Assembly: GCA_947165105.1 (NCBI GenBank)
Contig: CAMUZC010000017.1
Location: 1-21,173, forward strand
DNA length: 21,173 bases
Direction: 5' to 3'
Source of the DNA: an uncultured Lachnospiraceae bacterium
GTDB taxonomy: Bacteria > Bacillota_A > Clostridia > TANB77 > CAG-508
Shown here: one piece after another, positions 47 to 16,928 of the stretch
Layout of the letters: the number at the start of each line of letters is the position of its first letter
Numbering within the stretch: the first letter of the stretch is position 1
Translations under genes and position numbers: made by a program
Notes under the pieces: model-generated
The model's input: only the letters and a program-made list of their open reading frames with translations
What the model was told of the DNA's origin: nothing
Database searches by the model: none

Positions 47-541
47 TTATTTTCTTCTATCTACTTTATAAATAACATCAACTTCATCAGCCGTAGGTTC
101 TTCCCATTTGCATTCCAGCTTTTTCATCAAACCTTCATCTAAATAAAAATCCGCCCCTCCATTACCATCTAATATTCTTTGATTTCTCTCTGTAATATTT
201 TGCTTCCAAGTTTCATCATCAACAAATACATAATGAAGTTCGCAATCTATGCCATTGCTTCTATAGTATTCTCTTATTTCTTTTCTATCTTTTTTTGTCC
301 ATAAACCTCTCTCAAATATTACATTAGCACCTGCTTTTACAATTTCTCCAACTTTTCTAGTCAAATATTTATTTAATCTTTCAGAGAATTTATTATAAAA
401 CTCTCCTTGCTCGTTATTTATTAATTCAAAAGTTGCCTCATCTGGAGAAATTACTACAGCATTCAACTCTTGTTTTATTTTATTAGAATAAAAACTTTTG
501 CCACTGCATATTTTTCCACATGTTATTATTACTTTTGCCAC
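47..541 (-). CDS. P-loop kinase-like ATP-binding protein
   Basis: The 164-aa protein starts with a beta strand and a Walker A loop, GKICSGKS at residues 9-16, typical of the AAA_33/zeta-toxin-like and small-molecule kinase fold. A second strand, NVIFERGLW (about 73-81), fits the Asp/Glu-containing second motif of these kinases. A basic lid-like segment (ITERNQRIL) lies near 116-124. The start is GTG at 541, preceded by AAGGAAGTGG at good spacing; no in-frame ATG suits better. It is second in a unit behind the VOC gene (54-base gap) and probably cotranscribed with it. The substrate cannot be read from sequence: nucleotide, antibiotic or RNA-end phosphorylation are all possible. The family call is fairly safe; the function is open. 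Confidence 0.75.
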   Translation of the reverse strand: MAKVIITCGKICSGKSFYSNKIKQELNAVVISPDEATFELINNEQGEFYNKFSERLNKYLTRKVGEIVKAGANVIFERGLWTKKDRKEIREYYRSNGIDCELHYVFVDDETWKQNITERNQRILDGNGGADFYLDEGLMKKLECKWEEPTADEVDVIYKVDRRK

Positions 542-2180: not shown

Positions 2181-3263
2181 CTACCTTACTCCTTCATCTA
2201 AAACTTTTGTTAGATCACCTTCAAAACCATAAATTTGCTTACACAAAGGTTGCTTACGTTTTCCTCCTGGAACAACTACTTTTTCCAAATCCTCATAAAT
2301 ACTATATAATCTAATACCGTATTTTTCCATTGTTTCAGTGCTTATTTCTTTAAATGCTGGACATGGCAATATAATTCCATCATACCTTATATCTAGCTTT
2401 TCTGTCCCTGCTGTGCACAAGTGTGATATTTTTCCATTTAGTGGAATTCCTATTCTAATTTTCCCACTAAAATGCTCTTTTTCTCTATTTAGTATCTCAG
2501 CAAATTCTTTTAATTCTTCTTGGCTAAGCATTAACTCTTCTTTGTATTCTCTTCCTCTACCTTGTGGTACAAAATTTAAAATACTTATATTTTCAACATT
2601 AGCAATTTCCAAACATTCGATTATATCTGAAAACTCTTTATAGTTTTGTTTCATGGGAACAAAATGTACGTCAACATTTAAATCTGCATTTCTAGCTCTT
2701 ATAATTGAAGTCATCGCATATGTATTTGTTCTTTTTCTCCCCATTAAATCATTATCAATTTCTTCATTTACTGCTTGCCAATCAAATACAATTTTATCTA
2801 GTCCTAATTCTTTTAAATGCTCTAATTCCTCTTTTGATATTGATGTATATTCTCCTGGATTAAGATAGTGTTCATAATATGCTTTTACTTTTTGTTTTAA
2901 ACGTTCATTCCATTGTTCGTATCGCTCTATTTCTTGCAAAGCTTTTTCGCATTTATTTTTTATATGCTCCACCATTTCTTTTGGTATTTCACTTAATCTT
3001 TTTATTCCACTAGTAAATACTACTGTTCTTAATCCATTATTTTTACAAAATTCAATCATCTTAAACAGATCTGGATGAAGAAATGGTTCACCACCGGAAA
3101 TAGAAACTTCACCTATGCCACCATGATTTATAAAATGAATTATTGTTTTTTTGAATTGTTCTAAAGTTATTATTGTCTTTTTTTCTTTTGATGAATTTGA
3201 AGAGCAAAACTTGCATTTATTGGGACAAGTTTGTATTACTTCAAAACATAAATCTTTTAGCAT
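2181..3263 (-). CDS. Radical SAM protein with SPASM-like C-terminus
   Basis: The 360-aa protein has the [4Fe-4S]/SAM motif CX3CX2C as C13-C17-C20 (CPNKCKFC), followed by SISGGEP (about 54-60), the SAM-binding GGEP motif. A helical insert rich in charged residues (about 95-140) interrupts the usual barrel. The C-terminal part has CTAGTEKLDIRYDG, then PCPAF and a last PLCKQIYG, arranged like the auxiliary-cluster region of SPASM/twitch enzymes. ATG at 3263 has AGGTGAA at the right distance. Such enzymes often modify peptides or cofactors, but no precursor peptide or partner gene is next to it. It stands alone between two copies of the short repeat. Substrate unknown. Confidence 0.85.
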   Translation of the reverse strand: MLKDLCFEVIQTCPNKCKFCSSNSSKEKKTIITLEQFKKTIIHFINHGGIGEVSISGGEPFLHPDLFKMIEFCKNNGLRTVVFTSGIKRLSEIPKEMVEHIKNKCEKALQEIERYEQWNERLKQKVKAYYEHYLNPGEYTSISKEELEHLKELGLDKIVFDWQAVNEEIDNDLMGRKRTNTYAMTSIIRARNADLNVDVHFVPMKQNYKEFSDIIECLEIANVENISILNFVPQGRGREYKEELMLSQEELKEFAEILNREKEHFSGKIRIGIPLNGKISHLCTAGTEKLDIRYDGIILPCPAFKEISTETMEKYGIRLYSIYEDLEKVVVPGGKRKQPLCKQIYGFEGDLTKVLDEGVR

Positions 3264-5369: not shown

Positions 5370-6734
5370 TTATCTCAATTTTAGAATTAAGCAGCACTCC
5401 ACATGTGATGTAAACGGAAACATATCCACTGGCTGAACCTCTACCACCTCATACATCTCCTCCATCATCTTCAAATCCCTAACCATAGTCGCAGGATTAC
5501 AACTAATATACACAACTCTACCAGTCTTCAACTTCATAATGTTTTTGATTGTCTTCTCATCCAACCCTCTTCTAGGAGGATCAACAATAATAACATCCGG
5601 CTTAATTTTCTCTTTCTTAATCAACTCATCAAAAGCCTCTTCAACATCCCCGCAAATAAACTCTACATTATCAATATCATTCAAATTAGCATTAATTCTT
5701 GCATCCTCAATAGCTTGTTTTACAATCTCAATTCCATAGACCTTTTTCGCATATTTAGAAGCAAAAATTCCTATTGTACCAACTCCACAGTACAAATCGC
5801 AAACAATATCATTTTCAGTAATATTCGCATTTTCAATAGCAATATTATACAAAGCTTCTGCTTGAATTGGATTAACTTGATAGAATGACATAGGTGAAAT
5901 TTTAAAAATGTAATCTCCTAATCTGTCTGTAATATACCCTCTTCCAACAATTGCTTCGTTTTTATCTCCCATAATTACATTAGTATTTTTCATATTAATG
6001 CTTTTAACAACTGTTCTAACTTCTGGGAATTTATCAATAATATTGTTAGCAAGTGTTAGCTCGTGAGGCATCTCTTTGCCATTTATAACTATTATAACCA
6101 TTATCTCATTTGTTTGAATTCCAACCTTTGTTATAATGTGTCTAACTAATCCTTTTCCAGTTCTCTCGTTATATACGCTGATTTTAAACTTAGCCATTTC
6201 ACTTAATATAAACTCCGCTATTTCTGAAGATATTTTCTTTTGAATTTGACATTCTTTTAATGGAATAATCTCATGAGTTCTTTTAGCAAATACCCCAAAT
6301 ACTGGCTTTCCGTTCTTATCTGTTCCAACAGGATATTGTGCTTTATTTCTGTAATTGTATGGATTTCCCATTCCTAAAACTTTTTTAACTTCCACTTTAT
6401 TAGCTAAAGTTTTATTTATTAAATTTTGAACCTTTTCTTGCTTGATATCTAATGTTTTATCATAATCAATGTGACGCATGCTACATCCACCACATCTTTT
6501 ATATGAATCACAATCAGGATCACATCTAAACTCAGATTTTTGGATAATTTCTACAATCTTTGCAAATGCATGAGATGCTGTTGTTTTTAAAATTAAGATT
6601 TTACATTTTTCACCTTTTATTGCACCTTCAACAAATACTGTGTAATTATTAATTTTTGCAATTCCTTCTCCTTCAAATCCATTATCGATTATTTCTACTA
6701 TATACTCTTCGTTTTTCTTAATTGGTATATCCAT
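5370..6734 (-). CDS. rlmD: 23S rRNA (uracil-C5)-methyltransferase RlmD/RumA type
   Basis: The 454-aa protein has the full RumA layout. An N-terminal TRAM domain (about 1-65, with DNGFEGEGIAKI) is followed by an Fe-S cluster segment with cysteines at 71, 75, 81 and 84 (CGGC motif) and a further Cys in LKECQIQ. The Rossmann methyltransferase domain carries DLYCGVGTIGIF for SAM binding, VDPPRRGLD, and the catalytic SCNPATMVRDL. The family makes 5-methyluridine in 23S rRNA (U1939 in E. coli); Bacillota homologues may also modify U747 (RlmCD), which sequence alone does not settle. It follows the peptidase gene by 18 bases, has GAGGGG before ATG, and is full length. Confident call. Confidence 0.95.
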   Translation of the reverse strand: MDIPIKKNEEYIVEIIDNGFEGEGIAKINNYTVFVEGAIKGEKCKILILKTTASHAFAKIVEIIQKSEFRCDPDCDSYKRCGGCSMRHIDYDKTLDIKQEKVQNLINKTLANKVEVKKVLGMGNPYNYRNKAQYPVGTDKNGKPVFGVFAKRTHEIIPLKECQIQKKISSEIAEFILSEMAKFKISVYNERTGKGLVRHIITKVGIQTNEIMVIIVINGKEMPHELTLANNIIDKFPEVRTVVKSINMKNTNVIMGDKNEAIVGRGYITDRLGDYIFKISPMSFYQVNPIQAEALYNIAIENANITENDIVCDLYCGVGTIGIFASKYAKKVYGIEIVKQAIEDARINANLNDIDNVEFICGDVEEAFDELIKKEKIKPDVIIVDPPRRGLDEKTIKNIMKLKTGRVVYISCNPATMVRDLKMMEEMYEVVEVQPVDMFPFTSHVECCLILKLR

Positions 6735-6752
6735 ATATAAATCCCCTCTACT

Positions 6753-7337
6753 TTATAAATCTGGAGCTCTTAAAATCTTTTGAACATTCATTCCCCAATT
6801 AGTCTTAACTGGTGCTGCTTTTTGTAATAATGGTCTGTTACCTGCATCATATTGTCTTCCTCTGCCCCCATAAATAGCTATATGTCCATTATAGCATAAT
6901 ATGTCTCCTGGCTGAATATCTTTTTTGTCAACTTCTTTCCATCCTTTTTGAGTTAAATATCTTATTAAATTATTTGCTCCGTTTAAATAATTATCTATAT
7001 GTTCTTGTTTTGATAAATATCCTAATTCTTGTAATACCCATGATACATATGTTGCACAACATGTGTTATGATGTCCTGTTTTTGATTCTTCAAATGTGGA
7101 ATTTAATCCGCATTCACCATCATGATTGCATCTATGGTCATATGTACAATATCCATAATTATTTTCTCTCATATAATCATGTATTTCTTTTGCTTTGATG
7201 GAAACTTTATTTTCAATTACTGGCTCATCATAAAGAACATTATCGAGAACCGTAGTATATCTTTCCAACAAAAAAAATCCAACAACGAATGCTGTTATTA
7301 CTAAATATATAATTAAAATTATTTTTAGTATTTTCAT
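6753..7337 (-). CDS. Membrane-anchored NlpC/P60-CHAP-like cysteine peptidase
   Basis: Residues 5-24 form one hydrophobic segment after a short basic start, so it is a membrane anchor or uncleaved signal. The rest should be outside the cell. A Cys pair at 93-94 in NTCCATYVSWVL fits the nucleophile at the start of a helix; GDILCYNGHIAIYGG supplies His152 and QYDAGN a third polar position. This is the NlpC/P60 or CHAP amidase pattern, used to cut peptidoglycan peptides. A Cys-rich insert (CTYDHRCNHDGEC, about 64-76) is unusual and might bind metal or form disulfides. It is followed by rlmD at 18 bases, an arrangement without obvious functional logic. Confidence 0.75.
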   Translation of the reverse strand: MKILKIILIIYLVITAFVVGFFLLERYTTVLDNVLYDEPVIENKVSIKAKEIHDYMRENNYGYCTYDHRCNHDGECGLNSTFEESKTGHHNTCCATYVSWVLQELGYLSKQEHIDNYLNGANNLIRYLTQKGWKEVDKKDIQPGDILCYNGHIAIYGGRGRQYDAGNRPLLQKAAPVKTNWGMNVQKILRAPDL

Positions 7338-7370
7338 TGGACAACCCCATTTCCATAATCAATATTCTAT

Positions 7371-7398
7371 ATTATATCATATATTTTCAAATAAGCAA
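7371..7398 (-). promoter_or_regulatory. Promoter of the peptidase-rlmD unit
   Basis: On the minus strand, TTGCTT (7393-7398), 16-base spacer, TATAAT (7371-7376) with TG one base before the -10. Confidence 0.55.
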
Positions 7399-7411
7399 AG
7401 AATTTTAAATC

Positions 7412-7454
7412 GGGGACGGTCCTTTTTTAAAATTTCAAAAAAAGGACCGTCCCC
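7412..7454. repeat. REP-like GGGGACGGT hairpin, probable terminator of the ABC operon
   Basis: GGGGACGGTCCTTTTTT (7412-7428) and its complement (7438-7454) form a 17-bp perfect stem with a short AT loop. Palindromes beginning GGGGACGGT recur between genes in many Bacillota, from memory, in the style of REP elements. It lies 12 bases past the ABC permease stop and could end that transcript. The same GGGGACGGT core occurs again inside the MFS gene at 16859-16867. Confidence 0.7.
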
Positions 7455-7466
7455 AATTTAAAAAAT

Positions 7467-8696
7467 TTAATTAGCCTTATCTCTATATACCTTAATCATA
7501 TCCTTAAAACTCATCTTGCTACCATAATTCAAAATAGCATTAGAATAAATCTTAATAGCAATTTTAGCAATTACAATACTTGTAATAATTAACACTCCAA
7601 TAGAAATAGCAATATCTTTTGGCTCAGCCAATCCCATCATAATTCTTAAAGGCATGCAGAATGGTGATGAAATAGGTAAAATTGAAGCGATTGCATTTAA
7701 ATTACTTGTTGGATTCATCATAGTAAAGTAAGCTAGATAAAAACCTACAACAGAAATTATTGCAACAGGCATGTTTGCTGACTGAATATCTTCTGGTTTG
7801 CTTACAGTTGATCCTGTTAATGCATATAATAATGCATATGCTAAATAACCTAATATAAAATAAACTATTGTAATAATTCCAAGTGCTGGTGTTATATTAG
7901 ACATATCTAGCACTGAGTTTAGTAATTCTGGTTCTAAGAAAGCTTTTGCACTTGCTAAAGCTGTTCCAACAATTACTATAAGCTGTGCTAATCCAACTAA
8001 ACCAATACCAATAGTTTTACCAAGCACTATAGTTCTAGGGCTTGTTGATGTCACAAGCGTTTCCATTATTTTTGATGTTTTTTCAGTTGTAATTGAACTT
8101 GAAACTTGATATGCACAGAAGTAAATTGCGAAGAACAATACCATAGATAAAAGCATCATTATAAGCACATTACCTTTTGCTTCTTTTTCAGCTGTTTGCT
8201 CTAAACTAAACTCAAAATTTGGTGTAATTGATTTTAATTGTTCTTCATTTAATCCTAATTTACTAATTTGCATATTCATATATAATGCATTCATTCCAGC
8301 AACAATATCTTCTGGAACGTCTCCCATCATTGTTGTATTTTCTACAATATATCTCATCTTAATATTATTGTCTTGTTTTTCAACAATGATTGCTGAATCA
8401 ATTTCGTCTTTTTCAATTTTTTCTTTTATTTCATCATAAGAATTTTTTGTAATCTCTATTTCATAATCTAAATTCAAACTTTTAATTACATCCAAATTAC
8501 CATCAAAAACATCTTCGCTATCAGCAATTAACAACTTTTCTGTTGATGATTCATTTCCTTTAAACTTCTTTATTAAATTTGGAACATTAAATCCAACAAC
8601 TATAAACACTAAAATAATTAAAGTTGAGATAATAAAAGACTTTCTCTTAACCATTTCTTTAATTGTAAATTTCATTACTGTTAAAATATCCTTCAT
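7467..8696 (-). CDS. ABC-2 type transporter permease (NatB-like)
   Basis: The product (409 aa) has the ABC-2 exporter layout: one membrane helix near residues 20-40 after a basic start, a soluble loop of about 130 residues, then five or more hydrophobic segments from about 180 to the end. KTSKIMETLVTSTSPRTIVLGKTIGIG is the conserved NatB/YhaP-like cytoplasmic coupling segment. I prefer ATG at 8696, one base past the ATPase stop; GTG at 8705 would overlap that gene. It pairs with the ATPase encoded just upstream. Relatives export sodium, peptides or drugs; the cargo is unknown. Confidence 0.88.
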   Translation of the reverse strand: MKDILTVMKFTIKEMVKRKSFIISTLIILVFIVVGFNVPNLIKKFKGNESSTEKLLIADSEDVFDGNLDVIKSLNLDYEIEITKNSYDEIKEKIEKDEIDSAIIVEKQDNNIKMRYIVENTTMMGDVPEDIVAGMNALYMNMQISKLGLNEEQLKSITPNFEFSLEQTAEKEAKGNVLIMMLLSMVLFFAIYFCAYQVSSSITTEKTSKIMETLVTSTSPRTIVLGKTIGIGLVGLAQLIVIVGTALASAKAFLEPELLNSVLDMSNITPALGIITIVYFILGYLAYALLYALTGSTVSKPEDIQSANMPVAIISVVGFYLAYFTMMNPTSNLNAIASILPISSPFCMPLRIMMGLAEPKDIAISIGVLIITSIVIAKIAIKIYSNAILNYGSKMSFKDMIKVYRDKAN

Positions 8697-10967: not shown

Positions 10968-11462
10968 ATGATTAACATTTATGATTGGTCATACGCTATC
11001 GAAAAAAACATAGTCCGGATAACATTCAATCAACCATTAGCCAATAAAATTATCATTGTAGCAAACGTATTTAAAGCTCAATTAATCACAAACATCAAGT
11101 GTGAAGAAAATGAACTTTATTTTGGATTTAAAAATGCTATAATAGCTAATGATTTTGTTGCTGCTCTTGTCGAAAAATATCCAAATATTTTCACACTGAA
11201 GAACAATTGGGATATTTCTCAGACGGCCAATACCACTGTATCATTTTCCTGCTTGGTAGATTCCAATACTAGTGTTGTAGAAGAAATAGTTACCTCTATG
11301 TTTGATGATTTCAAAACTATTACTTCTATGACTAACAAAAAAGTATCTAACTTTGAATTAAACATTGATTCTTCTGTTGGATATATGAATTTTGATATCG
11401 TTTTCTCTACGCAGGACAATGCAAAGAACTTTATTCACGACTATAATCGATTCAAAAAGTAA
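10968..11462 (+). CDS. Hypothetical protein with two similar halves
   Basis: I do not recognise this 164-aa family. It has no signal peptide, membrane segment or obvious catalytic motif. The sequence divides into two halves, about 15-72 and 89-163, each with the order strand, helix, strand, strand, helix. Each ends in a comparable segment: FGFKNAIIANDFVAALVEKY in the first and FDIVFSTQDNAKNFIHDYNRF-like in the second. That suggests an internal duplication of a small alpha-beta domain. GGAGGTG precedes the ATG, and a promoter and terminator flank it, so it is a real single-gene unit. Its function is unknown. Confidence 0.75.
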   Translation: MINIYDWSYAIEKNIVRITFNQPLANKIIIVANVFKAQLITNIKCEENELYFGFKNAIIANDFVAALVEKYPNIFTLKNNWDISQTANTTVSFSCLVDSNTSVVEEIVTSMFDDFKTITSMTNKKVSNFELNIDSSVGYMNFDIVFSTQDNAKNFIHDYNRFKK

Positions 11463-11469
11463 TCACCAA

Positions 11470-11505
11470 AGCCAGCAATTCATTTTTTGCTGGCTTATCT
11501 TTTTA
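11470..11505 (+). terminator. Terminator after the 164-aa unknown gene
   Basis: AGCCAGCAA (11470-11478) pairs with TTGCTGGCT (11487-11495), followed by TATCTTTTTA, 7 bases after the stop codon. Confidence 0.75.
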
Positions 11506-11554
11506 TATTACTAAAATATTCCTTGTTTCCATTTTAAATACAAATATATTTTTC

Positions 11555-12148
11555 TTATAAGTTGTACTTTTTCTCTATTAGTTCTAAAGCTTTTTTTACA
11601 TCATATTCCTCGGTAATATTAATATTGCATGCTTTAATATATGCTAACATCTCATTTTTCACTTTATTTATTTCTATAATTGATTTTCCTTCGAAATCAT
11701 TAACATTTTCATATTCAATTAAAGTTCCTAGATTTTCAACTATCTGAAAAGCAAATTCATTTCCGTTTTTTTCATATACAATCACATGATATTTCACTTC
11801 AATAAGATTGTAAAAACCTAAACATTTAAATAAACTCTCTGCTTTTTCCAAATCATCACAATTTAAATTTACTTTTTGTTCAGAAACAACATCTCCTTTA
11901 TTATCTAATTCTTTATTCTTATAAGTAATCTTTTTAATCTCTTTTCCATCTAATTTTAAATTCCTCAATAATACTGAATGTTTCAAGAATTCTTGTACAT
12001 TTTCTTTTTTCATTTCAATATCTAAATTTGATAAATATATATCATCAATATCACTTTCTCGTATTTTTTTAAATCCTTCATTTTCTAATTTACCAATGGC
12101 ATCTTCCATTTTTTCAGTCAATCTGACTGTAATTTCTATCTGTTTCAT
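11555..12148 (-). CDS. CYTH domain protein
   Basis: The 197-aa protein follows the CYTH tunnel-fold layout. It has an N-terminal strand with EITVRL (the family signature is ExExK; here E-I-T-V-R), then SVLLRNLKLDGKEIKKITYK, and DLEKAESLFKCLGFYNLIEVKYHVIVYE, then LGTLIEYEN near 140. Charged residues on alternate strands match the polyphosphate-binding pattern. Members include class IV adenylate cyclases and thiamine triphosphatases, and act on triphosphorylated substrates; the second acidic residue of the signature is absent, so activity is uncertain. GAGGAGGA precedes the ATG. It has its own promoter and is separated from the upstream operon by a strong terminator. Confidence 0.75.
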   Translation of the reverse strand: MKQIEITVRLTEKMEDAIGKLENEGFKKIRESDIDDIYLSNLDIEMKKENVQEFLKHSVLLRNLKLDGKEIKKITYKNKELDNKGDVVSEQKVNLNCDDLEKAESLFKCLGFYNLIEVKYHVIVYEKNGNEFAFQIVENLGTLIEYENVNDFEGKSIIEINKVKNEMLAYIKACNINITEEYDVKKALELIEKKYNL

Positions 12149-12174
12149 TTTGTTCCTCCTCTTATATTTTTTAT

Positions 12175-12203
12175 ATTATACAACAAAAAAAGGAAAATTT
12201 AAA
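12175..12203 (-). promoter_or_regulatory. Promoter of the CYTH gene, embedded in a terminator
   Basis: On the minus strand, TTTAAA (12198-12203), 17-base spacer, TATAAT (12175-12180). The -35 lies within the loop-proximal part of the terminator hairpin of the preceding operon. Confidence 0.5.
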
Positions 12204-12223
12204 TACTTAAATTTTCCTTTTTT
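12186..12223 (-). terminator. Terminator of the kinase-rSAM-NADAR-GreA operon
   Basis: A 17-bp perfect stem (12186-12202 with 12207-12223) has a four-base ATAC/GTAT loop. GGAAAATTTAA lies at the top and an A/T run at the base, so it should work on both strands. Confidence 0.8.
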
Positions 12224-12251
12224 GTCCAATTAGGATCAGCAATTTTTACGT

Positions 12252-12722
12252 TTAGATTTTTTCGATTTTTTTAATTACGATTGTTCTTGAATTGAAACTG
12301 AAAGTATCTCCTACATGCTTTCCAATCATAGCCTGTGCAAGAGGTGCATCACAAGCAAGAACACAACTTTTTAAATCGCCCTCTGTACTTCCAAGAATAG
12401 TAAACTTCTTTTCTGCACCCTCCATAGTAAAGGTTACAACTGCTCCGACAATAACGGTTGTGCCATCAAATTCCTGATACTCAGGTGTATCTTCAATGAT
12501 AACAGCCTCTTTAATCTTCCAGTAAATTTTTTCCTTCTGTGCGGGCAAAGTGTGCATAGCTTTTACGCGAAGTTCCATGAACTCAGGATTCTCACGCAAG
12601 TCGTTGTCACGCTTGGCACTTTCACCCATTTCGTTAAGTGTTTTCTGGATTTCGGCATCAATAGCCTTAAACTCAGTTTTAAGCTTAACTAAGCCAGCTC
12701 TCGAAATCAGTTCGTTTTTCAT
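12252..12722 (-). CDS. GreA/GreB-family transcription elongation factor (paralogue)
   Basis: The 156-aa product has both Gre domains. The N-terminal coiled coil (about 8-75) has the tip sequence DLRENPEF with Asp41 and Glu44, the acidic pair that holds the catalytic Mg in RNA polymerase. The C-terminal FKBP-like domain carries ILGSTEGD, CDAPLAQAMIGKHVGDTFSF. So it should rescue backtracked RNA polymerase by inducing transcript cleavage. It diverges from housekeeping GreA (RDND insertion-like tip, unusual mid-region) and is the last gene of an operon with no other transcription genes; its ATG overlaps the NADAR stop by 4 bases. One stretch (12601-12660) is 27/60 G+C, against 15/60 at 16561-16620 in the MFS gene, hinting at a different history. 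Confidence 0.88.
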   Translation of the reverse strand: MKNELISRAGLVKLKTEFKAIDAEIQKTLNEMGESAKRDNDLRENPEFMELRVKAMHTLPAQKEKIYWKIKEAVIIEDTPEYQEFDGTTVIVGAVVTFTMEGAEKKFTILGSTEGDLKSCVLACDAPLAQAMIGKHVGDTFSFNSRTIVIKKIEKI

Positions 12723-13180
12723 GATGAAATCTCTCCTTCGTACTCTGTTTTTAGTTTTAAACGAACAGCCATAACAATTTTCCCATAATTGTTTTGACCA
12801 TCATTATTAGGACCGCAGCCCCAATAATTTTCCTTAACAGTAGCTTCAACAATATATGCATCACCAGTTGCCAACAATTTTTTTAGAATTTGTCCATTCT
12901 GTTTAAACTTGAAGTAAACTGCCTCAAACATAACTTGTTGCTTTATCAGCTCCCAATCTTCTCTCAAATGATACATCCTGTTTCTTCCAATATTGGATGC
13001 TTCTTTGGGTGTTGGAGCATCAACAATTAGCTGTCTTACAGCGGGATCTAAAAACTTATGCGCCTGATAATAGTGCTCAGAGGTTTTCCAATAAATGTTG
13101 TCTTTGTAGAAACCATGGTTAGAATATGTTGCTAAATACCCTAAAGGTCCGAATTCCTTATAGAAACGAATTTCATTCAT
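12719..13180 (-). CDS. NADAR domain protein (YbiA-like N-glycosidase)
   Basis: The 153-aa protein shows all NADAR blocks: FYKEFGPLGYLATYS near the start, WKTSEHYYQAHKF (31-43), ASNIGR (61-66), and WGCGPNNDGQNNYGKIVMAVR (120-140). Known members cleave N-glycosidic bonds: YbiA/RibX acts on reactive riboflavin intermediates, and other NADAR proteins remove ADP-ribose from guanine in DNA. It lies third in the overlapping operon, sharing 8 bases with the rSAM gene and 4 with GreA. Coupling to a nucleotide-kinase-like protein and a radical SAM protein suggests a nucleotide-like substrate, but which bond it cuts here is unknown. Confidence 0.92.
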   Translation of the reverse strand: MNEIRFYKEFGPLGYLATYSNHGFYKDNIYWKTSEHYYQAHKFLDPAVRQLIVDAPTPKEASNIGRNRMYHLREDWELIKQQVMFEAVYFKFKQNGQILKKLLATGDAYIVEATVKENYWGCGPNNDGQNNYGKIVMAVRLKLKTEYEGEISS

Positions 13181-14852
13181 TCCTTCTTTGACCTGGAATA
13201 AGATACTTTTCTTTTAAGTCTGACATCTTATAGATTTCATCTGTTTGTTCTTCTAATTTGATTACAAATCTATAAGACACCTGCCCCTTTTCACTTGCAG
13301 TATCAAACATATTAAGTCGTTCTATTACAATAGAATTATCATAATCACAACTTAATCTCCAGGCTACACCTTCCTGAGTCATTTTGCTATTATGCATACC
13401 ATAGTTTCTTTCGTGGGTAGGAGTTAATGGTTCATTTTCTTTGTTAGTTAAACCGCAAAATTCACTTATTGCTCTACCAAGATTACAAATAATCCCTGTA
13501 TCAATAGAAAATTTGCAGTCAAATAACAAATTAGCGTCATATCCTGCTTGCTGCAAAACACTTATATACGCATTAATCATAGGTAAAACTTCATTTATGA
13601 TGTACTCATATTTTTCAAGTTTTCCTATGTTTTTGTACGCATGTGCTGTTTTCTTACAAAGTTCTAGAACGCTATAAACATCGGCCCATGTGGCATTAGG
13701 AAATGCATCCAAGCTTCTCAAACCTATTGATTTTTTATAAGAAATCAATGCATTCAAGAAGAATCTCTCGGTAATAATATATCCAGACATTGTCCTGTCT
13801 TCAGTTTTGGGATATATGTTTATACCAAAATTTCCATTCTCGGTTATGCTTGGGTTAATAGTATAGTACTCTCCATCATAGTTTCTCATAAGATAAACTT
13901 CAGACAGACTATAATCCTTACCCAAACTGTTTCCTATAATGATGAACTTGTGTGCAATTCGCTTAACTTCTTCAATATCCTTGACCGCTGCATATAAATC
14001 AATACTAAAAAACATTTGAGGTTCTTCTGTAAGACTTATGCTGTGATCATATGGATCCTTGATTTTTGATTCATGCAGTTCAATTTGCTTTTTTTCAGAT
14101 ATCCACAAATAATTTCCTGTACAGATAACCATATGTGATAACACCTCTGTAATATATACATCGGTAATTTTCACCAATGGCTTATAGCGGATTTCAACAC
14201 AAGCCTCTCTGCTACCTGAACCAAATTCTTCGAAGTAGGGTTTGTAAATTTCAAGAAAATTTGCCATATCTAGCATATAGTCAAATTGACTAAATTTCTC
14301 GTTTTTACATTCCCAACCAATTTCGTATGGTGTAAAAGATAATCTTACACCACCTACCCCTTTTGATTCGTTCTTACTAATTCTCTGATGCATCTTGTTA
14401 AGTTCTTCGTTGTGTCTACTAAAACTTACTGAAGAAATTCTTGTAGTGACACCCAATTCTCTCATTAGGAGATTGATGAACTTGTCTAAATACGGATAAT
14501 TTCCAACATCATTGTCCAGATATGGAAATACAACCGAATTCCTGTGTTCTTTCCTGTCGTAAGTTATTATAGACATACTAGTGTCTTTCTGCGGAGATGA
14601 ATACTTTAATGCTGCAATTGTATTTCTAAGTCTAGCTTCTGTCCAAAACTCGACTTTAGAATCGGCAAACTTGCTACATATTTTGCATGCATTTAAACAT
14701 CCTACCTGAGGTTGCAAGTGACGAAGTTTAGAGAAAAATTCTTCTGGCATATTTTTGAACACGGCAATTAATTTTTTCCGCTCCAGATAATCCAGCTCAG
14801 AGATTTCTCTTTCATCACTTAACAAAAATTCCGTTTTCGTCAAGATTATCAT
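13173..14852 (-). CDS. Putative radical SAM protein, 559 aa, unknown family
   Basis: Near the N-terminus GCLNACKIC supplies C52-C56-C59 in CX3CX2C spacing, the radical SAM cluster motif. Later segments follow a barrel rhythm: SVVFPYLDNDVGNYPYLDKFINLLM (about 106-130) would take the place of the GGEP region, then TRISSVSFSRHNEELNKM and GGVRLSFTPYEIGWE (137-181). Beyond about residue 200 there are more than 350 residues I cannot place, with no membrane segment, few cysteines, and a helical segment (ELCKKTAHAYKNIGKLEKYEYI). The ATG overlaps the kinase stop as ATGA, so translation is probably coupled. Substrate and reaction are unknown; the radical SAM assignment rests on motif and context and would be weakened if the barrel does not model. 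Confidence 0.7.
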   Translation of the reverse strand: MIILTKTEFLLSDEREISELDYLERKKLIAVFKNMPEEFFSKLRHLQPQVGCLNACKICSKFADSKVEFWTEARLRNTIAALKYSSPQKDTSMSIITYDRKEHRNSVVFPYLDNDVGNYPYLDKFINLLMRELGVTTRISSVSFSRHNEELNKMHQRISKNESKGVGGVRLSFTPYEIGWECKNEKFSQFDYMLDMANFLEIYKPYFEEFGSGSREACVEIRYKPLVKITDVYITEVLSHMVICTGNYLWISEKKQIELHESKIKDPYDHSISLTEEPQMFFSIDLYAAVKDIEEVKRIAHKFIIIGNSLGKDYSLSEVYLMRNYDGEYYTINPSITENGNFGINIYPKTEDRTMSGYIITERFFLNALISYKKSIGLRSLDAFPNATWADVYSVLELCKKTAHAYKNIGKLEKYEYIINEVLPMINAYISVLQQAGYDANLLFDCKFSIDTGIICNLGRAISEFCGLTNKENEPLTPTHERNYGMHNSKMTQEGVAWRLSCDYDNSIVIERLNMFDTASEKGQVSYRFVIKLEEQTDEIYKMSDLKEKYLIPGQRRNE

Positions 14853-15418
14853 TCCTTTCTAAGAATTTCATCGTACAGTTTCATGATATTTGATTCAATA
14901 TTTTTATTAGTATTGTCAAAAAAGATTGTCCTCTCTTTATCCAATAAATCATTGAATCTTACCAAGAAACTATTTCTTGTTTTGGAATCATCTAATAACT
15001 TATCGAGTGTTGACTTTCCCCTTTCTGAAATCCTTTGTTCTCTGACACTTTCATCAATAGAAACAAAAATCGTCAAATCTGGTTTTAGAATACCGTAACT
15101 TGAATAATCTAAATCTACATCAAGACCTGCAACCTGATGAGAAACAATAGTGTCAATTAGATACCGTACACAATACACATTTTTGTTTTTATAATCATAA
15201 GACTTTTTTATCTTATCAGACATGTATATGACTGATGATAAATAAAACAAATAATGAGCTAATTGTGATGTTTCTCTCACCTCAGTGTCTATTCTGTCTC
15301 TTCCTGAAAATTCAATACTAGGAGTTTTCAACACAACAGATCCATTGTCTATTTTGTTTAACTCTTTAGCCACCGTACTTGTACCAGAACCATCTAAACC
15401 TGTAATTACTATAAACAT
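14849..15418 (-). CDS. dTMP-kinase-like P-loop protein with altered Walker A
   Basis: The protein of about 189 aa opens with FIVITGLDGSGTSTVAKEL, the nucleotide-loop of the thymidylate kinase family, except that the usual GKS/T lysine is Thr (GSGTST). VRYLIDTIVSHQVAG corresponds to the family's DRY segment. DLTIFVSIDESVREQRISERGK contains the strand and LID-type arginines. It should bind or phosphorylate a nucleotide or nucleoside; loss of the lysine may change or reduce catalysis. I prefer ATG at 15418, which has AAGGAGAG 8 bases before it, over ATG at 15424, which is too close. It is the first gene of the four-gene operon. Confidence 0.8.
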   Translation of the reverse strand: MFIVITGLDGSGTSTVAKELNKIDNGSVVLKTPSIEFSGRDRIDTEVRETSQLAHYLFYLSSVIYMSDKIKKSYDYKNKNVYCVRYLIDTIVSHQVAGLDVDLDYSSYGILKPDLTIFVSIDESVREQRISERGKSTLDKLLDDSKTRNSFLVRFNDLLDKERTIFFDNTNKNIESNIMKLYDEILRKE

Positions 15419-15477
15419 TGTCATCTCTCCTTATAAAATCAATTTAAATTTTATAAATAAAAACAAGTTTGATATGT

Positions 15478-15506
15478 ATTATATCACCAACCTTCAAAAA
15501 AAACAA
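15478..15506 (-). promoter_or_regulatory. Promoter of the kinase-rSAM-NADAR-GreA operon
   Basis: On the minus strand, TTGTTT (15501-15506), 17-base spacer, TATAAT (15478-15483) with TG one base before the -10. A TTGACA lies farther upstream but is 29 bases from the -10, too far. The leader to the first ATG is about 55 bases with no strong hairpin. Confidence 0.6.
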
Positions 15507-15620
15507 GTATTTTGTCAATTTTTTATGTTGCCTTGCACTTTTTCGAAATCATCTTGCAAAATTCATAAAGTTATGTTAAATTAACAGTAGTAAATTGAAT
15601 TTAAAAATTAATAAATAAAT

Positions 15621-15655
15621 GTGAGATTTTTCGTAAACCCGTTGTGGAATCGCAC
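15621..15655. other. Small inverted repeat between two units
   Basis: GTGAGATT (15621-15628) can pair with AATCGCAC (15648-15655) with one A-G mismatch, around a 19-base loop. It abuts the MFS terminator. Function unknown; possibly part of a larger 3' structure. Confidence 0.3.
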
Positions 15656-15656
15656 C

Positions 15657-15689
15657 AAAAAGAAGTTATCGAACCGATAACTTCTTTTT
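15657..15689 (-). terminator. Terminator of the MFS gene
   Basis: A 15-bp perfect stem, AAAAAGAAGTTATCG and complement, around an AAC loop, directly next to the MFS stop codon. The outer A/T pairs give a U-run on the minus strand. Confidence 0.8.
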
Positions 15690-16928
15690 TTATTTTCTTA
15701 ATTTATAAATTCTTCCATATAACCCTACAACAATAAACTTCAAAAACTGTCCAACAAATAAAGCAAACACAGCACCTTTCCAATCTGCAATTGCACCAAC
15801 TAAAACAGCAAAAATTGCATATAATATACTTCCTACAAGCGACTTCAACGATCCCATACTACTTCTATATTCATCTTTATACAAACTTTGTGAAATATCA
15901 TTTTTAGCGACATCTGTTGGAAATACTGAATTTGTAACCATTATAAATGGAGAGAATATATTATTCATCAGCAAGCTTACCCAATTTGATACAATGCTAA
16001 ATACATTGGAAAAAATAATTAATTTCTCATTTACCCATTTCTTTAGTATCTTTCCACTAAACCAACTTCCAAAAAAAGCTCCAATATTAGCTAAAATTCC
16101 TGGTATTCCAACAGCCCATATAGGCCATACCATTTTGTAAAACTCACTTCTAAATTGAAATGTTGCCTCTCCTATCCCATCTGAAATTCCATCTGCTATA
16201 ATTTGTCTTTTTAAAACCTTGTTATTCTTCACTAGTTTTACTACATTCTTCACCTGTGCTAAAACATTTTCATCTTCGTTTGAATATCTTTTTACATCTT
16301 TTAATCTAACTGATAAAATCACTTCAAAAATCCTTGGAATTACTGAAATAATCATCAGCATCCTTATTGATGTAAAATATGCTACAACCGCTCCTAGCAC
16401 TGTACTTAATATTCCTGCCATATAATACATTGAATTCGTTTTGCCTAAATAATGCTTATACTCACTCTCTTTTCCCTCTTCTTTTAATGTATCATATATA
16501 AAAGCATTGTTATTTCCACTAAAAAACGCTCTTTCTAATCCTTCAAAAATCGCTGCAAATATTAATCCTACATATGAACCAGTTACAGCTAGAATTACTG
16601 CATATATTAATGAATTAATACATCCCATAATAACTGTATTTTTTCTTCCAATTTTATCTGCTATTATTCCTGTTGGAAATTCGAAAATTGCGCTTGCTAT
16701 CATTGTTATGCTGAATATGCTCATTCCTAACATCATTGAATTTGATATTTGTGAGTAGTATATTATTGCAAATGCACCATATAATTTGAAGTCCATCAAA
16801 AGGTTTAATAGGCCCATTGTTCTTATATTTGTTTTTACAACATTTTTTTCTGGGAAATGGGGACGGTTCGGATTTTCCAAACCACTTTTTTCTTTAGTGC
16901 TTCCGTCTTTTTTTAAATATTCTTTCAT
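15690..16928 (-). CDS. MFS transporter
   Basis: The 412-aa protein has about 11-12 hydrophobic segments. The loop after the second segment, GIIADKIGRKNTVIMG (about 89-104), is the major facilitator G-x-x-x-D-(R/K)-x-G-R-K motif between helices 2 and 3. It is probably a drug or metabolite efflux carrier; no substrate can be named. The start at 16928 has AAGGAGAACTGAGA upstream. The first 37 residues are a hydrophilic tail before helix 1; residues 18-27 (ENPNRPHFPE) are encoded by a copy of the GGGGACGGT repeat motif. It is a single-gene unit with promoter and terminator. Confidence 0.88.
   Translation of the reverse strand: MKEYLKKDGSTKEKSGLENPNRPHFPEKNVVKTNIRTMGLLNLLMDFKLYGAFAIIYYSQISNSMMLGMSIFSITMIASAIFEFPTGIIADKIGRKNTVIMGCINSLIYAVILAVTGSYVGLIFAAIFEGLERAFFSGNNNAFIYDTLKEEGKESEYKHYLGKTNSMYYMAGILSTVLGAVVAYFTSIRMLMIISVIPRIFEVILSVRLKDVKRYSNEDENVLAQVKNVVKLVKNNKVLKRQIIADGISDGIGEATFQFRSEFYKMVWPIWAVGIPGILANIGAFFGSWFSGKILKKWVNEKLIIFSNVFSIVSNWVSLLMNNIFSPFIMVTNSVFPTDVAKNDISQSLYKDEYRSSMGSLKSLVGSILYAIFAVLVGAIADWKGAVFALFVGQFLKFIVVGLYGRIYKLRK
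16859..16867. repeat. GGGGACGGT repeat motif inside the MFS gene
   Basis: GGGGACGGT matches the core of the hairpin at 7412-7454. Flanking GGAAA (16853-16857) and TTTCC (16874-16878) form short inverted ends around it. The insertion keeps the MFS reading frame and lengthens its hydrophilic N-terminus. Confidence 0.5.

Follow-up and report, generated by a model that had tools for sequence, protein, structure and literature searches.

Viperins are radical S-adenosylmethionine (SAM) enzymes that make 3ʹ-deoxy-3ʹ,4ʹ-didehydro (ddh) nucleotides, and prokaryotic viperins are often found near nucleotide kinases. NADAR proteins undo guanine ADP-ribosylation and serve as antitoxins, according to passages of PMC11543638 and PMC11125620; the available portion of the latter calls the roles of NADARs outside DarT operons unclear, and part of PMC13092281 places NADAR domains among experimentally tested defence systems. 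GreA is described in an excerpt of PMC6821320 as relieving the arrest caused by one incorporated oxazinomycin, whereas arrest at poly-T is relieved only after the analogue has been removed. Here we analyse a locus within a 21,173-nucleotide stretch of DNA from an uncultured Lachnospiraceae bacterium (contig CAMUZC010000017.1 of assembly GCA_947165105.1, positions 1 to 21,173; hereafter the window). Four adjoining genes, which we call the cassette, encode a thymidylate-kinase-like protein (KIN), a 559-residue radical-SAM-like enzyme (rSAM), a NADAR protein and a Gre paralogue. The cassette joins transcript cleavage (Gre), N-glycosidic hydrolysis (NADAR) and putative radical chemistry (rSAM) in one inherited unit, and points to an undescribed system based on altered nucleotides. 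Its genes, in order of transcription, are:

14849-15418, minus strand: KIN, a thymidylate-kinase-like P-loop protein of 189 amino acids; the start is common to most relatives, and a longer open reading frame (ORF) starts at 15424
13173-14852, minus strand: rSAM, a radical-SAM-like enzyme of 559 amino acids from an unnamed family, recognized by its CX3CX2C motif and predicted fold
12719-13180, minus strand: NADAR (YbiA-like) N-glycosidase, recognized by Pfam and NCBIfam
12252-12722, minus strand: Gre paralogue, a transcript-cleavage factor of the GreA/GreB family, recognized by Pfam GreA_GreB

Four genes inherited as a unit

A first-pass annotation, made from the window alone, had proposed that these genes form one operon, and all four do lie on the minus strand with overlaps of 4, 8 and 4 bases. 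It had also suggested counting how often the partners accompany homologues of the 559-residue protein. We read the context in genomes from the order of the starting genome (G001) plus two metagenome-assembled genomes; 12 distinct genomes were counted, the pairs L001/L004 and L002/L020 being the same loci and each entering once. KIN, NADAR and Gre adjoin rSAM in all 12 of these other genomes that encode it: NADAR and then Gre lie downstream, and KIN lies upstream, complete in nine and truncated at the contig edge in three (L018, L010 and L004). With mechanically assigned starts, the gaps among the four genes range from -35 to +17 bases. Fusions, seen as extra Pfam domains in 6 of 120 listed homologues, all match the gene order: rSAM is fused to NADAR in P0061, P0068, P0091 and P0114, KIN to rSAM in P0065, and rSAM to both NADAR and Gre in P0099. 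Because the order recurs in 12/12 genomes and the genes fuse, the set is no chance junction, contrary to a possibility that the first-pass annotation had raised.

The genes are also inherited together. Between any two of the four genes, pairwise distances correlate with r of 0.79-0.955 over 45 to 78 pairs, which are not independent. KIN proteins of this type (E < 1e-50) occur in 13 of 385 genomes, namely all 11 that carry rSAM (rSAM+) plus G718 and G679, while three more genomes have weak matches only (E 7e-6 to 7e-4); the co-occurrence of KIN and rSAM gives a Fisher p of 1e-19 among genomes that share ancestry. Operon-type NADAR was found in 12/12 rSAM+ genomes, and 18 further genomes, chosen rather than drawn at random (11 with KIN or a CYTH gene described below, 7 without), all lacked it. 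Two of the 18 carry something related: a more distant NADAR (E 1e-25) in G679 and a NADAR stub in G808. Operon-type Gre (E 1e-72 or better) is likewise present in 12/12 rSAM+ genomes. At least one further, distant Gre, presumably the housekeeping copy, accompanies it in 11 of the 12, and G566 shows a single Gre.

A radical-SAM-like enzyme and its three partners

On sequence and model evidence, the 559-residue protein is a member of a radical-SAM-like family with putative Fe-S/SAM chemistry. The family comprises several hundred proteins (390, plus 99 in a distant branch) and is nameless in Pfam, NCBIfam, PADLOC and PHROGs. CX3CX2C is present in 119 of 120 listed homologues, and Cys52, Cys56 and Cys59 are invariant in alignments of 38 and 114 rows. 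The AlphaFold2 model is confident (predicted local distance difference test, pLDDT, 91; predicted template modelling score 0.90), and by structure comparison its predicted fold matches a radical SAM barrel, or partial triosephosphate isomerase barrel. The closest solved folds include EpeE, SkfB, BtrN and DesII. The matched residues are scattered over positions 36-534 of 559, making a large insert likely; residues 224-447 modelled alone without an alignment reach a pLDDT of 36.5. Sequence profiles gave little: among ten scanned relatives, a radical SAM profile matched P0034 and P0242 only, at 13.4 bits against a cut-off of 29.5; hhalign against another radical SAM protein gave a probability of 34% or 20%; the alignment profile found no noteworthy match among PDB sequences; and PADLOC returned one stray match (0.036). 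The whole model matched no viral structure under E 1e-3. Elsewhere in the window, 2181-3263 (minus strand) encodes an ordinary radical SAM protein (Pfam 1.6e-21), no relative of which was seen beside the cassettes of the compared loci.

NADAR scores 112.4 bits with Pfam NADAR (3.3e-32; gathering score 35.1) and 109.3 bits with NCBIfam ribofla_fusion (cut-off 73.7). Glu35 and Lys42 are invariant in 13/13 sequences, and their spacing of 7 equals that of Glu88 and Lys95, which part of PMC11543638 reports as required in the E. coli C7 NADAR. In a pairwise alignment Glu117 pairs with an aspartate of YbiA; the third acid in DarT1-linked NADARs is Asp171. The window NADAR is nearer to YbiA (2b3w, 7.7e-27) than to 8bau (6e-7), the sole other NADAR of solved structure that it matched, and scores 73.6 bits with NCBIfam DS32_2_antiphage, far beneath the cut-off of 240.

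The Gre paralogue carries the Pfam GreA_GreB C-terminal domain (3.4e-13, 49.8 bits over 26.9). Its tip sequence DLREN is invariant in 13/13, preserving the catalytic acids Asp41 and Glu44, and the motif that holds them aligns with its counterpart in E. coli GreA. With NCBIfam greA it scores 67.5 bits, under the cut-off of 139.

KIN matches Pfam Thymidylate_kin (PF02223) at 2.4e-14 and 53.9 bits, over a cut-off of 27. It falls below the NCBIfam deoxythymidine monophosphate (dTMP) kinase equivalog (56.6 bits, cut-off 83.25) and matches PADLOC PDC-M51B at 5e-31. The P-loop GLDGSGTST and a VRY motif are invariant in 10/10 KIN proteins. A GSGT P-loop is found also in some archaeal cytidine monophosphate (CMP) kinases, and KIN weakly matches the archaeal CMP kinase family of NCBIfam (3e-7). 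A second P-loop gene in the window (47-541, minus strand; AAA_33, also Zeta_toxin 2.4e-7) has an ordinary GK P-loop and is unrelated to KIN.

The names given in the first-pass annotation have largely survived. "Radical SAM" is supported by the invariant CX3CX2C motif and the predicted barrel, NADAR by a domain above its gathering score with conserved Glu and Lys, and the Gre paralogue by its C-terminal domain, the acidic DxxE tip and the second Gre in 11/12 genomes. "Kinase-like" stands in part: the match to the thymidylate kinase family holds, but the P-loop lysine is gone and the cut-off of the dTMP kinase equivalog is missed.

A distant actinobacterial branch

Starting from a remnant carried by a Streptomyces plasmid, we reached 99 distant proteins, most of about 555 amino acids and, where named, mostly from Streptomyces, Nonomuraea and Kitasatospora. 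One of them, P0149, shares 31% identity with the window protein across 533 aligned residues, and hhalign connects the clostridial and actinobacterial alignments with 100% probability over 521 columns. CX3CX2C is present in 86 of the 99; several of the 13 motif-less proteins are short, and P0172 (526 amino acids), P0206 (551) and P0203 (617) are not.

For this branch the context comes from a single intact locus, a clean and a doubtful fusion, and a pair of remnants, with NUDIX as the partner. NUDIX domains occur in two branch proteins. P0240 is a clean rSAM-NUDIX fusion; P0203 lacks its N-terminal half, appears by eye to be out of frame before the NUDIX part, and may be a decayed copy that only looks fused. 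In the intact locus (L063, a viral-contig record of 73.9% G+C) rSAM is followed 72 bases downstream by NUDIX, an ATP-grasp-like gene (6399-7937, plus strand; 1.4e-5, slightly below cut-off) lies directly upstream, and an IS110 transposase lies downstream of the pair. On two Streptomyces plasmids, rSAM remnants lie beside NUDIX or run into it.

Operon boundaries and the neighbouring CYTH gene

Beyond Gre the window contains:

12187-12222, minus strand: hairpin and U-run downstream of Gre, likely a terminator (z -3.9 against dinucleotide shuffles)
11555-12148, minus strand: CYTH/CyaB-like protein, a loosely linked fifth gene (NCBIfam cyaB 1.7e-12, under cut-off)
12175-12203, minus strand: promoter-like TTTAAA-17-TATAAT upstream of CYTH (10/12 matches; such sites are no denser than in shuffles)

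For the start of KIN, 15418 is preferred over 15424, since 7 of 9 other KIN proteins start at the same methionine. The terminator that the first-pass annotation placed after the operon finds support in the hairpin at about 12187-12222 (-17.4 kcal/mol, with 1 of 200 shuffles equally good); a second terminator scanner, which demands G-C pairs, missed it. The single promoter that the annotation placed before the operon was not supported, with 19 promoter-like sites in 11400-15720 against a shuffle mean of 20.5; the site nearest KIN, 15437-15408, overlaps the KIN start. The cassette has a G+C content of 34.2%, compared with 29.3% for the window overall. Within 11555-15424, G+C climbs from 30.4% in KIN to 39.1% in Gre and is 23.4% in CYTH.

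The adjoining CYTH gene was absent from the first-pass annotation. Close CYTH relatives (E < 1e-40) occur in 9 of 11 rSAM+ genomes, compared with 10 of 374 genomes without rSAM (rSAM-), and any CYTH relative at E 0.001 in 95 of 385. In seven of those nine, CYTH adjoins the cassette, on the KIN side in G717 and downstream of Gre in the others; G567 retains just the first part of CYTH at a contig end, and in G002 CYTH is on a separate contig. Among the 10 close-CYTH genomes that lack rSAM, three hold more of the cassette: KIN immediately precedes CYTH in G718 (L046), where rSAM, NADAR and Gre are missing, a NADAR stub (33 amino acids, 64% identical) lies beside CYTH in G808 (L052), and a Gre stub (19 amino acids, 95% identical) remains in G551 (L055). 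Because of these remains, some lone CYTH genes look like leftovers of a cassette; no cassette remnants were seen in the other seven. We rejected CYTH as an obligate fifth gene, since it is linked yet often solitary or broken, and weaker relatives are common.

Solitary CYTH genes of the linked subfamily also turn up at various unrelated sites, often close to a contig end and frequently split between two frames (L046-L059, L019, L023 and L025), as if CYTH were mobile or prone to decay. In G002 the same gene pair, judged by eye from protein starts, flanks the CYTH side (L057, 1-2000) and the KIN side (L058, 800-1600), as if there were a direct duplication around the cassette or two mixed strains.

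A patchy and mobile distribution

The distribution of the cassette is patchy and mobile. A search with the rSAM alignment found it in 1 of 391 genomes of the class, 6 of 292 of the family and 11 of 385 of the order, in samples that overlap. We compared flanking ORFs of at least 90 amino acids among the window and 10 loci. Those in common were recombinases (L016, L020 and L022), two small genes at a distance of some 5 to 6 kb (L016 and L019) and an agr-like region that lies on one side of the cassette in one genome and on the other side in the second (L022, 1646-6465; L023, 4504-11400; AgrB by Pfam, with related kinase and regulator genes); the remaining matches were frames antisense to cassette genes. 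Besides CYTH, no further gene was common to most cassettes in this comparison, and the few shared flanks imply that the cassette occupies many sites.

We annotated 20 of 79 neighbour ORFs from the 10 loci with Pfam and found mobility genes in at least 7 of the 10: serine recombinases (L016, L020 and L022), a relaxase with MobC (L017), an integrase (L018), an IS200 transposase (L023) and UPF0236 (L024), which we take to be transposase-like. Resolvase-family genes number 45 per roughly 18 Mb of the 12 genomes, so the flanks, roughly 97 kb in all, should hold about 0.24 and in fact show 3. The cassette is richer in G+C than its flanks in 8 of 9 loci. PADLOC matched 3 of 10 chosen neighbours, namely a Fic protein (SoFic model, 3e-43, L025), a large helicase in L022 (models DpdE, 2.2e-136, and ZorD) and, more weakly, a neighbour in L019 (mad2, 7.8e-13); the L022 helicase is perhaps a generic SNF2 helicase. 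These neighbours are suggestive of a defence setting, short of a defence island.

Proposed function and its alternatives

Our tentative preference, which we hold at somewhat under an even chance, is that the cassette is an accessory module that is mobile and works through an altered nucleotide, with genetic conflict as its likeliest purpose. The rSAM enzyme would modify a substrate that is a nucleotide or derives from one, and KIN would supply, phosphorylate or sense that substrate. NADAR would hydrolyse the N-glycosidic bond of the rSAM product, limiting or clearing it, and the Gre paralogue would cleave the 3ʹ end of transcripts that have stalled, allowing the host RNA polymerase to survive incorporation of the product. 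Phage or another element would be the likeliest target. A nucleotide is the likeliest rSAM substrate because the partners (NADAR and KIN, or NUDIX) differ between the phyla yet all act on nucleotides. A Gre factor has a place here provided that the product gets to RNA polymerase; by analogy, the need to remove oxazinomycin before poly-T arrest is relieved would explain the pairing of Gre with a nucleotide-clearing enzyme. A more specific version, which we consider possible but doubtful, is that rSAM makes a nucleotide that poisons RNA polymerase, which NADAR destroys and the private Gre excises, NUDIX being used instead in actinobacteria. The nucleotide module suggested at first pass is backed in part, by gene set, order, fusions, co-inheritance, the patchy distribution, the motif and predicted fold of rSAM and the kept NADAR and Gre residues; we infer its substrate and division of labour, together with the direction of the chemistry and an anti-phage purpose.

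Several observations weigh against this proposal. The 559-residue protein has no Pfam match up to E 0.1, Radical_SAM included, and no NCBIfam or PHROGs match; in structure comparison a peptide epimerase and a viperin-like enzyme share the top rank, and Foldseek alone found no PDB match for the model under E 1e-3. With yeast dTMP kinase as reference, the P-loop lysine of KIN is replaced by threonine and the aspartate of the DR(Y) motif by valine, each in 10/10 proteins. The 17.6 kb of L063 yielded no KIN, NADAR or Gre, and its ATP-grasp-like and NUDIX genes also suit small-molecule biosynthesis. Ten of 12 plasmid records match the NUDIX part only, without a matched rSAM, so the rSAM-NUDIX pairing is not exclusive. 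Seven of the 10 chosen neighbours lack a PADLOC match, and with the L022 helicase maybe generic there is no clear defence island. Short exact-pattern scans found no clostridial-type rSAM or KIN relative in viral contigs and no clostridial-type relative in phage records; on these scans, viral carriage of the clostridial-type cassette was rejected.

The same genes could instead serve detoxification or resistance, a reading we consider unlikely on balance: the module would make no toxin and would handle a nucleoside antimetabolite from outside, or damage, for example ADP-ribosylated guanine, with rSAM and NADAR destroying or repairing the adduct and Gre rescuing RNA polymerase stalled there. NADAR, Gre and the actinobacterial NUDIX are all clean-up activities, and both the reversal of guanine ADP-ribosylation by antitoxin NADARs and the relief of single-site oxazinomycin arrest by GreA (in the passages cited above) would suit this role. 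However, the four genes include no ADP-ribosyltransferase, and three of the ten rSAM- genomes that carry a close CYTH appear to have lost the middle genes, which fits a costly active enzyme better than mere protection, without proving one. Slightly less probable is small-molecule biosynthesis, in which a nucleotide-derived metabolite or cofactor would be made for another use and mobile carriage would be accidental. The row of ATP-grasp-like, rSAM and NUDIX genes in L063 resembles a biosynthetic set, and EpeE, SkfB, BtrN and DesII, among the nearest solved folds, are biosynthetic enzymes; yet no transporter or regulator seems to accompany the cassette (only CYTH is shared among the window and 10 loci), and a dedicated Gre has no obvious place unless the product hits RNA polymerase.

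We also considered that Gre itself inhibits RNA polymerase upon infection, the other genes merely switching it on. The model for this is archaeal TFS4, a virus-induced cleavage-factor paralogue that inhibits RNA polymerase and whose catalytic acids have become lysines, as stated in part of PMC5715097. The tip acids of the cassette Gre are invariant in 13/13, and the idea was rejected as highly improbable because the acidic tip is retained. A chance junction of unrelated genes would draw on the fact that NADARs, kinases and Gre factors are each common; recurrence in 12/12 genomes, fusions and co-varying distances rule it out, leaving it a negligible probability.

Comparison with known systems

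No description of this gene set appears among the matches listed in open-access PMC literature, judged on titles and the starts of abstracts. Viperin with its kinase is the nearest concept, and we do not claim the cassette rSAM as a member: it differs in its length of 559 residues, a likely large insert and its NADAR and Gre partners, and it has no viperin-named match in NCBIfam or PADLOC, no alignment to a viperin set having been made. KIN resembles dTMP kinases and PDC-M51B overall in sequence but differs in the P-loop (Lys to Thr) and the DR(Y) motif (Asp to Val). PADLOC PDC-M51 was rejected as the same system, as its partner PDC-M51A is generic and is not the rSAM: PDC-M51A (PDLC04689) matches 14/14 of the genomes scanned and also 11 of 14 controls, which leaves it little diagnostic value alone. 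The cassette Gre shares the C-terminal domain and the catalytic coiled-coil tip of GreA/GreB factors, and differs as a divergent paralogue far under the greA cut-off that is locked into an operon.

The cassette also resembles the NADAR antitoxin modules DarT1-NADAR and YarT-YbiA, in that it has a YbiA-like NADAR with conserved Glu and Lys. A DarT-NADAR pair was rejected, since neither the four genes nor CYTH gave an ADP-ribosyltransferase match in Pfam or NCBIfam. In place of that enzyme stand rSAM, KIN and Gre; the cassette thereby offers one context in which a NADAR occurs away from DarT and, if our proposal is true, would represent a new way of handling altered nucleotides.

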